A stretch of 64,000 nucleotides of DNA. It comes from Archangium gephyra. GTDB lineage: Bacteria > Myxococcota > Myxococcia > Myxococcales > Myxococcaceae. Shown here piece by piece: positions 48,949 through 52,192 of the stretch (position 1 is the first letter of the stretch; every line of letters starts with the position of its first letter). The stretch is from assembly GCF_001027285.1 (NCBI RefSeq), contig NZ_CP011509.1, forward strand, positions 484,501 to 548,500, written 5' to 3'. A model generated the notes under the pieces. That model was not told the origin of the DNA and made no database searches. It saw nothing but the letters and a program-made list of their open reading frames with translations. Made by a program: the position numbers and the translations under genes.

Positions 48949-49250
48949 GTCTCATCTTCCAAGCCAGGAGGATGGAGTCCTGGCAGCGGGGAGGTTCCGG
49001 CCGCGATGGGGAGCAACTGGTCCGATTGTTGGACCAGTTGGCACGCCGCGCGGCCGGAAGGCACCCCGGCGAAGGAAGCCGCGGAAGGGGTTGTGAGGGG
49101 AGGGACGCGGGGATGTATGGGGTGCGAGCCGTGGACGGGGGGTGGAGGGGGTTCGCTGAGGGCCACTTCCGCTCCACGCGGGGCTCGGGTAGTTTGCGCC
49201 GCTCTGCGTTCGGCAGTTCCGCAGTACGCAGCAAACCGAGGACATCAACG
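48949..49250. other. intergenic region with palindrome
   Basis: 302 bp between the quinone reductase gene and the next gene. It holds the AACTGGTCC palindromic element (49015-49039) near its left end and must carry the promoter of the following gene. No small gene is supported. Confidence 0.45.
49015..49039. repeat. AACTGGTCC palindromic element, copy 2
   Basis: AACTGGTCC-GATTGTT-GGACCAGTT, the reverse complement of the element at 23413-23437 over all 25 bp. Both copies lie shortly downstream of NAD(P)-binding (NmrA/biliverdin-reductase-like) genes. Confidence 0.8.
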
Positions 49251-49742
49251 ATGGCACGCATTTCCCAGGACCAGGCGCAGGAGCGCCACGCGTTCCTGCT
49301 CGACCTCTTCCGCAACCAGCCGGACATCAGCCGCAACGAGGCGATGGACGCGTACAAGGACAAGTTCGGGGCCTCGCTGAACGCGAAGACGTTCAACGAG
49401 CTGCGCGAGCAGGCGCTGCGTGATGCGGAGAACGAGGAGAAGGCCGAGGAGAGCGTGAGCGAGGCCGAGGAGACGCCGGTGGAGGAGACGAAGCAGCGGG
49501 TGGTGGCGGCGGCGCTGGACTTGACGAACGGTGCGGGCACGCCCGCGGCGGCGGCGGCGGCGGCGGCGAAGAAGCCGAAGGCGAAGGGGGCGGGGGCGAA
49601 GAACGTGTTCGTGGACGCGACGCAGGAGCAGCTGCAGTTCCTGGAGAAGGTGCTGATCCAGCTGCAGGACTCGGGTGCGAACAACGTGCGCATCGACCAC
49701 GCCACGGACCGCTGGATGGTCCTGACGGTGGACTCGAAGTAG
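49251..49742 (+). CDS. conserved hypothetical protein with Ala/Lys linker
   Basis: Protein of 163 residues from ATG 49251. The N-terminal half is helical ('RHAFLLDLFRNQPDISRNEA', FNELREQALRDAENEEK), then an acidic segment and a run of Ala followed by KKPKAKGAGAK, then a compact C-terminal domain (FVDATQEQLQFLEKVLIQLQDS..NNVRIDHATDRWMVLTVDSK). The basic Ala/Lys linker recalls histone-tail-like or nucleic-acid-binding linkers. Function unknown. Confidence 0.65.
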   Translation: MARISQDQAQERHAFLLDLFRNQPDISRNEAMDAYKDKFGASLNAKTFNELREQALRDAENEEKAEESVSEAEETPVEETKQRVVAAALDLTNGAGTPAAAAAAAAKKPKAKGAGAKNVFVDATQEQLQFLEKVLIQLQDSGANNVRIDHATDRWMVLTVDSK

Positions 49743-49776
49743 TCAGTCGTTTCCCGAAGTCCCTCTGTCAATCCCT

Positions 49777-49811
49777 CCCTCTCCCCCCGGGAGAGGGTCG
49801 GGGTGAGGGTG
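49777..49811 (+). repeat. REP-like palindromic element
   Basis: CCCTCTCC..GGGAGAGGG hairpin followed by TCGGGGTGAGGGT, intergenic, just left of the IS-derived element. Confidence 0.85.
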
Positions 49812-49909
49812 CCCGCCCCCGTGTTCCCCCCGAGAGGGAGAGCGAACCGGGGGCGAAGCGCTAAGAGTGCCTGGCAAAACCTGGCGAGGGATGCGGGCCG
49901 TACAAGGGC

Positions 49910-50410
49910 CTAGTTGCTCACGCTGACGACGGCGCCTTCCAACTCGGCGGGTTCGGGCGCCTCGTAGAGGCCCTCGATGAGGTCGAACATTTCCGGCGTC
50001 ACCTCCATGACGAAGGTCTCGCCCTTGGAGGTGTTGCGGCCGGCGACCCGGGCGCGGCGGACATCCTGCGGCGCGTCAACGAAGTGCCACTGCAGCGACA
50101 GGCCGGCGGCCTCGGCGAACTGGCGGATGCGCTCGCGGTCGGCGCGGCGCATCAGCCCGAGGTCGAGGACCACCGAAGTCCCGGCGGCGACCACAGCGGC
50201 TGCCGTCGACCTGATCAGCGCCGCGCAGCGGCCGGCCCGCTCCAGCATCCACTGGAACTCGATGGGCCCGCGGACGTCGGGGCCGAAGAGGCGCGCGCCC
50301 CATTCGTCGAGGATGAAGGGGACGGCGCCCTCCCGCCGGGCCAAGGCGTGGGCGTAGGTCGTCTTCCCCGCGCCGCAGGGACCGAAGATGACGTTGAGTT
50401 GGGCCGCCAT
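49910..50410 (-). CDS. P-loop kinase-like ATP-binding protein (AAA_33), IS passenger
   Basis: Protein of 166 residues from ATG 50410. Walker A is FGPCGAGKTTYA; further motifs are FILDEWGARLFGP, VVLDLGLMRRADRERIRQFA and 'ARVAGRNTSKGETFVMEVTP'. This fits the AAA_33 group (zeta-toxin, polynucleotide- or small-molecule-kinase-like). Acceptor substrate unknown. The stop lies inside the left terminal repeat of the IS-derived element, and upstream it reads in frame into the transposase remnant. Confidence 0.75.
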   Translation of the reverse strand: MAAQLNVIFGPCGAGKTTYAHALARREGAVPFILDEWGARLFGPDVRGPIEFQWMLERAGRCAALIRSTAAAVVAAGTSVVLDLGLMRRADRERIRQFAEAAGLSLQWHFVDAPQDVRRARVAGRNTSKGETFVMEVTPEMFDLIEGLYEAPEPAELEGAVVSVSN

Positions 50411-50590
50411 GATGACCTCGCCGGGTAAGTCCTCCCAAGGGATGCCGATCTTGAGCACGAAGAGGATGCCTGGCAAGCAGGCGCGATCCTCTGCGGGCGG
50501 ATGCCCCCTTCAGGTGAGGCGGATGCTTCGGGAGAAGTGGCTCGACGCAGGACCAGAGCGCGTCGGAGACAAGCTCGCGGGCCATGCACC
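50411..50590 (-). pseudogene. 5' remnant of an IS5-family transposase
   Basis: Minus-strand translation gives LVSDALWSCVEPLLPKHPPHLKG and, after a one-base frame change, PPAEDRACLPGILFVLKIGIPWEDLP. Both are characteristic of the DUF4096 N-terminus of IS5-family transposases. The catalytic DDE part is absent; the frame continues straight into the P-loop kinase ORF (GEVIMAAQLNV). Confidence 0.8.
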
Positions 50591-50701
50591 CGACCTGTGC
50601 ACGGCCCGCGTCCCTGGCCAGGTTTTGTCAGACACTCTCAGGCAGCGACGTACCGAGCGAGAACGGCGTAGCAGGTAGGCCTCATCAAAAGTCCCCGGAG
50701 C

Positions 50702-51991
50702 TCAGCTCTCGAGGCTGACGGAGGGATTGGGGCTCACCGCGGGCACCAGCTTGGAGGGAGCCTCGGTGGCGTCGAAGGCGCGGGGGCGAAGCAGCCTCAG
50801 GGTGAGCACCAGCGCGAGGAACAGCACCGCGCAACTCGCGGTGACGAAGCGCACGCCGATGCGATCCGCGAGCGCACCCTGGGCCCACACGCCCACGGCG
50901 TAACCCACACCGAGCATCATGCTGTAGAGGCTGTGGATGCGGGCCTGGAGGTCGCGGGGGACGCGCAGCTGGCACAGGGTGTTCAGCCCCGTGAGGGTGG
51001 CCATGTAGAACCAGCCGAGACCGACCATGGCGAGCGCGGCGAGGTGGAGGGTAGGGGCCATCCAGTACAGGGCGGCGACGGCGCCGATGCCGAGCAGACA
51101 GGCCTCGAGGACGCGCTGGCGGCCGAGCCGGGCGACGAGGGGCCCGAGCATGACGGCGGCGAGCACGGCACCGACGCCCTGGGCGGTGACGAGCAGGGAG
51201 GTGGCGGCGGCGCCCTGGTTGAAGACGCGGATGGCGTAGACGGGCACCAGGCCGATGAAGGGGGCCACGAGGGTGCACATGACGAGGGTGCCCATCATGG
51301 CGAGGAAGATGCCGGCGTCATCGCGGGCGACGCGGGCGCCGCGGACGATGCCGGGCCAGAGCTCATCCTGGGAGAGGGTGCTGGCCTTGGCCGAGGGGCG
51401 CACGCGCGACAGGGCGACGAGCACGGCGACGAAGGACAGGGTGTTGACGAGCAGGGCCCAGGCGATGCCGTGGGTGGAGAGCACCACGGCGGCGAGCGCG
51501 GGGCCGATGATGCGGCCGAGGTTGAACTGGGCCGAGTTGAGACTCACGGCGCTGTGCAGGTCCTCGGGCGGGACGAGCTCGGAGACGAGCGCGGTGAAGG
51601 CGGGGTTGGTGAGGGCGCTGACGCAGCCGTTGAGGAAGGAGACGACGGCGACGGCGGGCACGGTGAGGTGGCCGGTGAAGGCGAGCGCGGTGAGGATGCC
51701 GGCCAGCAGCGCGTGCAGCAGGGTGCCCACGGCGACATAGGAGCGCCGGTCGAAGCGGTCCGCCAGCGCCCCGGCGACGGGGGAGAGCACCAGCGCGGGG
51801 ATATAGGTGATGGCGGCGATACCGCCGGTGGCCTCGGCGCGGCCGGTCACGGTGGTGACGAAGACACCGAGCGCGAGGATCTCCATCCACGTGCCGATGT
51901 TGGAGACGAGCGCACCAGACCAGACGTGTACGAAGTTCCGATGCCCGAAAGCACGGAGCGAGGAGAAGCGCGACAGGTGGAGGGCAGTCAC
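50702..51991 (-). CDS. MFS transporter, DHA3/EntS-like
   Basis: Twelve-helix major facilitator of 429 residues from the GTG at 51991 (AAGGG upstream); an ATG at 52087 would add 32 residues without hydrophobicity. The layout (FVHVWSGALVSNIGTWMEILALGVFV, 'LVLSPVAGALADRFDRRSYV' loop 2-3 motif A) is that of the MFS_3/EntS-like exporters. Such proteins export siderophores or drugs; the substrate here is unknown. No linked biosynthetic genes are seen. Confidence 0.88.
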   Translation of the reverse strand: MTALHLSRFSSLRAFGHRNFVHVWSGALVSNIGTWMEILALGVFVTTVTGRAEATGGIAAITYIPALVLSPVAGALADRFDRRSYVAVGTLLHALLAGILTALAFTGHLTVPAVAVVSFLNGCVSALTNPAFTALVSELVPPEDLHSAVSLNSAQFNLGRIIGPALAAVVLSTHGIAWALLVNTLSFVAVLVALSRVRPSAKASTLSQDELWPGIVRGARVARDDAGIFLAMMGTLVMCTLVAPFIGLVPVYAIRVFNQGAAATSLLVTAQGVGAVLAAVMLGPLVARLGRQRVLEACLLGIGAVAALYWMAPTLHLAALAMVGLGWFYMATLTGLNTLCQLRVPRDLQARIHSLYSMMLGVGYAVGVWAQGALADRIGVRFVTASCAVLFLALVLTLRLLRPRAFDATEAPSKLVPAVSPNPSVSLES

Positions 51992-52192
51992 GGCTCGACC
52001 CTTGTAACGCACCTGGGTGACGTGTGCTCGGTGGGCACCTGCGCACACGACGCCGAGTGCATGCTCGCCAACTGGCTTGGCAGACACCCGGCAAGGCTCC
52101 AGTGGCGACGAATTCGTATGAACACAAATAAGAAACGGAAAGAGCCGAGGTGAGGTGGCCCCGAGAGGAGTGACGCGTCAGGCTGACGCGCC

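Follow-up and report, generated by a model that had tools for sequence, protein, structure and literature searches.

A probable mobile-insertion-cassette-like element with IS5-type ends carries a small-kinase gene in a myxobacterial chromosome

Layout of the element

The window analysed here, a stretch of 64,000 nucleotides corresponding to positions 484501-548500 of a 12,489,432-bp myxobacterial chromosome, contains a compact element with inverted ends. It lies between two convergent genes, one on the plus strand, whose end is at 49742, and one on the minus strand at 50702-52087, which codes for an MFS transporter. Its features, in window coordinates, are as follows.

49865..50637, minus (the strand of the transposase remnant and the kinase): whole element, 773 bp, with inverted ends, missing from the syntenic site in five congeners, one genomic copy
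49865..49904, plus: terminal inverted repeat on the kinase-stop side, starting GAGTGCCTGGCAAAACCTGGC, 35/40 identical to the opposite end, of the end type of alphaproteobacterial IS5-family ISs
50598..50637, minus: terminal inverted repeat on the transposase-start side, starting GAGTGTCTGACAAAACCTGGC
49862..49864, no strand: flank TAA, a TNA-type target, different from the TCA flank opposite
50638..50640, no strand: flank TCA, read from the sequence
50415..50585, minus: 5' fragment of an IS5-family transposase gene (DUF4096), about 57 codons, with a frameshift near 50500-50509
49910..50410, minus: complete P-loop kinase gene (AAA_33), 166 aa, stop codon at 49910-49912
50416..50422, minus: Shine-Dalgarno-like GGCGAGG, 5 nt 5' of the kinase ATG, read from the sequence

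Read on the minus strand, about 57 transposase codons are followed by an intact kinase gene of 166 codons, after which the opposite end begins immediately. An initial annotation of this DNA had placed the element at 49864-50638, which is correct to 1 bp, and had described matching terminal repeats of about 40 bp, an IS5-type transposase start and a P-loop kinase ORF, all of which our analysis bears out (35 of 40 positions, a DUF4096-like N-terminus and an AAA_33 match, respectively). Its description of the transposase start as joined in frame to the kinase holds for the transposase piece 3' of the frameshift and fails for the transposase ATG: this codon (50585) and the kinase ATG (50410) are 175 nt apart and therefore in different frames. 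Nor does the kinase read on from the transposase start codon, as had been suggested, since the frameshift intervenes and the kinase has an ATG and a Shine-Dalgarno-like sequence of its own. Inspection of the ORF list revealed no antitoxin or other gene-like ORF within the 773 bp, and scans of the element for sigma-70-type promoters, terminators and Rfam families gave no matches. The suggestion that an IS promoter drives the passenger is thus not supported.

Terminal repeats and transposase remnant

The inverted repeats are identical at 38 of 44 positions when four flanking bases are included, and when the region was resampled 20 times with a first-order Markov model, the best value was 30/44; the inverted ends are thus far above chance. 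The element ends in TGAGAGTGTCTGACAAAAC, IS5-family ISs of alphaproteobacterial plasmids end in TTAGAGYGYCTAACAAAAC or nearly so, and related myxobacterial ISs carry a different end, GACTTCCTTTCATAACC. In the alphaproteobacterial and myxobacterial ISs that we inspected, the two ends match over only ~15-17 bp, as opposed to 40 bp in the element. This difference suggests that an inverted copy of the IS 5' end, rather than the original 3' end, forms the far end. The flanks, TAA on the left and TCA on the right, are both of the form T-N-A and non-identical, so that the target duplication whose presence was to be checked is not a perfect one. Among four inspected copies of the alphaproteobacterial plasmid ISs, the T-N-A flanks are identical in two (TTA/TTA) and TTA/TAA in the other two.

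The transposase remnant can be read as MARELVSDALWSCVEPLLPKHPP and GILFVLKIGIPWEDLPGEV on either side of the frameshift. It begins at the expected distance from the IS end and breaks off after codon ~57, the point at which the kinase homology sets in, and no C-terminal part of the transposase is left within the element. Its match to DUF4096 is weak and below the cut-off because the reading frame is broken. A protein query made of the two pieces joined across the frameshift is 62-67% identical over 58 aa to IS5-family transposases from alphaproteobacterial plasmids of Lichenicola, Azospirillum (ISAzba7-like), Roseomonas and Microvirga. The DUF4096-type N-terminus (below the cut-off on its own) and the matching ends together place the element in the IS427/IS1031-like part of the IS5 family, an assignment made by comparison with four plasmid copies rather than with ISfinder. 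Judged in this way, the IS fits the description of the IS427 group (e.g. ISPaes1 and ISPbe2), whose members are 832-865 bp long with ends of 13-21 bp (PMC3281130). The element resembles this group, and the ISAzba7-like copies on Azospirillum plasmids, in its end type, in the position and sequence of the transposase start and in overall length (773 bp), but differs from IS427-group ISs in its replaced transposase and its inverted repeat of 40 bp.

The initial annotation had advised a search for the same ends and cargo elsewhere in the genome and in relatives. The genome holds a single copy, and the one other close kinase, found in 1 further genome of 144 relatives, is without these ends. A full parent IS with these ends was found neither in the genome itself nor in 144 Myxococcota-side relatives, 390 Phenylobacterium-family genomes, plasmids or viral contigs, and searches with the transposase start across the 144 relatives, 195 genomes of the phylum, the 390 Phenylobacterium-family genomes and plasmids returned nothing above ~70% identity. 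The DUF4096 genes of the genome itself were considered as the parent IS and rejected, being other sequences with no matching ends. Separately, a lone near-match to the element end, with 2 mismatches, lies beside a tRNA gene cluster (G000:C1:11517888-11517908), and another occurs at G032:9912429; no partner end or IS gene was found near either, and both may be chance matches or solo IS ends.

The kinase protein

The cargo gene encodes what its sequence identifies as an AAA_33 small-kinase-like protein (PF13671; 74.1 bits against a cut-off of 27, E 1.9e-20). Like other AAA_33 kinases, it has a Walker A motif (GPCGAGKTT), a catalytic Asp35 and basic lid residues; the catalytic residues K16, T18, D35, R118, R119, R121 and R125 are conserved, with K16, T18 and D35 invariant. 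Unlike the other family copies, it carries W67R, a change private to the window kinase at an otherwise nearly invariant position, which could signal early decay. The ORF is open, with a pairwise dN/dS of 0.26-0.36 to the second-copy clade of Phenylobacterium described below; values among Phenylobacterium copies are similar, at 0.25-0.42 for second copies and 0.16-0.17 for native ones. For the most part, these values reflect the time before capture. In an AlphaFold model (pLDDT 85, pTM 0.82), the closest fold among the 50 best matches is a putative small kinase (2rhm), followed by adenylate, APS and gluconate kinases and PFK-2. A sequence-profile search brought up adenylate kinases and polynucleotide kinases, including a sequence relation to T4-type polynucleotide kinase.

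The kinase had been thought to be zeta-toxin-like, in which case it might act as a selfish or addictive cargo that stabilises the element. Weak similarity to the Zeta_toxin profile does exist, at 16.2 bits in the window kinase and up to E 3e-9 in other members of its family. However, the score lies below the curated gathering cut-off of 22.3, zeta toxins are absent from the 50 best fold matches, the unit holds no antitoxin ORF and thus no epsilon-type antitoxin gene beside the kinase, and nearly all sampled Phenylobacterium genomes carry the family as a chromosomal gene. We therefore rejected the zeta-toxin identity and regard toxin cargo as extremely improbable. An identity as a defence gene was also rejected, the best PADLOC match (E 0.013) covering the P-loop stretch alone.

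Lineage and distribution of the kinase

The kinase family is encoded in 56 of 60 sampled Phenylobacterium genomes, and in the Caulobacteraceae examined a native copy lies directly 3' of an SDR gene. Several Phenylobacterium genomes have a second, locus-variable copy. In six of them, and in one alphaproteobacterial MAG (G197), this copy sits at differing sites within a common stretch of ~640 bp, which includes a hairpin leader of ~90 bp, GGAACGAAGATCAAGCTNNGCCGTT. The leader is conserved and contains two hairpins (GGAACGAAGATCAAGCTNNGCCGTT ... GGGAGCAT ... GCTCCC) and lies ~90 bp upstream of the kinase at loci L111, L112, L107, L114, L115, L116 and L109. Its pattern occurs in 5 of the 60 Phenylobacterium genomes, once in each and exclusively before the second-copy kinase; it has no match in Rfam, and it is possibly a kinase-specific regulatory element.

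The window kinase falls into this second-copy clade with UFBoot 99 and splits off ahead of its remaining members (support 92), a placement from which we take it to be foreign and of a Phenylobacterium-type lineage. Copies above 75% identity are found in only 2 of the 144 relatives' genomes: the window copy and that of a member of another myxobacterial genus (G080:C1:6236115-6236622, or L110 3616-4123), a close sister with 84% DNA identity that nests among the Phenylobacterium copies with weak support. Both myxobacterial kinases lack the leader and the C-terminal tail of the Phenylobacterium copies. A broken IS630-type transposase gene stands 12 bp away from the G080 gene, whose stop codon is formed at the edge of that fragment; neither IS5 ends nor IS630-type inverted ends were found around it. 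Since the two myxobacterial kinases branch at different places in the clade, two separate acquisitions in Myxococcota are likely, though not proven. Kinase copies were not found on phages or viral contigs, and the plasmid-borne relatives are all less than 50% identical.

The insertion site in congeners

All five congeners examined (G001-G005) keep both neighbouring genes, and in none of them are the kinase or the ends present at the syntenic site. Two have nothing between the neighbours (G002 and G005), one has an intergenic repeat alone (G003), one a TPR/SPRY-like gene (G004) and one a discoidin-like gene (G001), the last two named from sequence reading. As the congeners hold different inserts or none there, the slot between the convergent genes is variable and amounts to a minor hot spot of integration. 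On the right of the element, about 48 bp are without a counterpart in the relatives, and the empty site therefore does not match to the base at that border.

Because five congeners keep both neighbours without the kinase and the ends, the unit is an insertion; the case of an IS arriving next to a gene already in place does not apply. An IS5 element that inserted next to a resident kinase and then decayed would fit a frameshifted transposase piece, as found in decaying ISs, and a direct repeat that is not intact. However, the ends flank the kinase on both sides, the C-terminal transposase is gone, the kinase is phylogenetically foreign, and its presence at the site in none of the five congeners already contradicts this explanation, which we consider very unlikely. 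According to the initial annotation, relatives that have the kinase at this locus but not the ends would speak for such a decayed neighbour; this was looked for in the five congeners and not found. Its main proposal, capture of a cargo gene into an IS5-type element without its transposase, remains the best reading, given the foreign kinase and the five sites that lack both kinase and ends.

Two intergenic repeats lie nearby. A palindromic repeat of ~110 bp at 48958-49070, with arms at 48995-49023 and 49031-49059, belongs to a MITE-like family, of which this genome and its congeners contain dozens of copies at 75-97% identity. The second, at 49770-49850 (CCCTCTCCC...GGGAGAGGGTCGGGGTGAGGG), has dozens of copies genus-wide and adjoins the cassette.

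Proposed origin and relation to known elements

Our analysis makes it quite probable that an IS5-family (IS427/IS1031-like) IS gave rise to the element, as a cargo-bearing, non-autonomous derivative of the mobile-insertion-cassette kind. A foreign AAA_33 kinase gene, from the second-copy clade of Phenylobacterium, would have taken the place of nearly the whole transposase gene, bringing along neither the leader conserved in Phenylobacterium nor the C-terminal tail. The unit could then have been mobilised in trans by a transposase that accepted its ends, and would have come to lie between two convergent genes of the myxobacterial chromosome. Translation of the kinase presumably starts at its own ATG, served by its own Shine-Dalgarno sequence, and its transcription may come from the IS end or from read-through.

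Alternatively, the kinase could have arrived by general horizontal transfer and later been bracketed by two inverted IS copies, each of which was then deleted, leaving a scar that was never mobile. The 40-bp repeat, longer than the ends of related ISs, would be expected if both ends were the 5' end of two IS copies, and the IS630-type fragment 12 bp from the sister gene in G080 indicates that ISs gather beside this gene. Yet for such a scar two ISs must have inserted, and two deletions must have ended at the start and stop of the kinase, and no kinase-flanking DNA of a donor is left between the kinase and the ends. We find it unlikely, and favour the cargo-bearing derivative.

Mobile insertion cassettes (MICs), originally reported from Bacillus cereus, have the inverted ends of an IS on either side of a passenger gene and no functional transposase (as cited in PMC3281130, PMC3129680 and PMC4133298). 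In the present element, likewise, IS ends stand at both borders (35/40), the transposase has been replaced by a passenger gene with no functional transposase left, and the unit is an insertion relative to the relatives. It differs from MICs in general in that its ends are of the IS5 family (IS427/IS1031-like) and its passenger is an AAA_33 kinase, and also in that it retains the first ~57 transposase codons, occurs in single copy and has no helper IS that we could find. It is best filed as a single-copy MIC-like element, and it illustrates clearly a type of gene hitch-hiking that is already known. A transporter IS (tIS) retains its transposase, whereas this element has no functional one; the likeness lies in the combination of IS ends with a gene unrelated to transposition. 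Such tIS elements are ISs with passenger genes (PMC3129680).

There is no sign that the element still moves. We infer its past mobility from the way it is built and from the sites that are unoccupied in relatives, because it exists in a single copy with no matching autonomous IS and an imperfect flank duplication. As no matching transposase is present, it is probably stranded today unless another transposase accepts its ends. The element leaves the knowledge of mobile elements and of toxin kinases unchanged; its value is that of a compact, well-bounded case in which an IS exchanged its transposase for a foreign gene whose donor lineage can be traced to another phylum. Since that lineage can be inferred and the sites in relatives are unoccupied, it helps to show how a single gene can pass between Alphaproteobacteria and myxobacteria without plasmid or phage.

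We tentatively suggest that the cassette was built in an alphaproteobacterium, to which both the kinase and the IS end type point, from two inverted copies of one IS 5' end around the kinase, and that it crossed the phylum boundary ready-made. IS capture might then be one of several routes by which this kinase spreads, given that its clade behaves like a gene that has shifted position repeatedly: the ~640-bp stretch with its leader stands at differing sites in seven alphaproteobacterial genomes, in addition to the two likely myxobacterial acquisitions.
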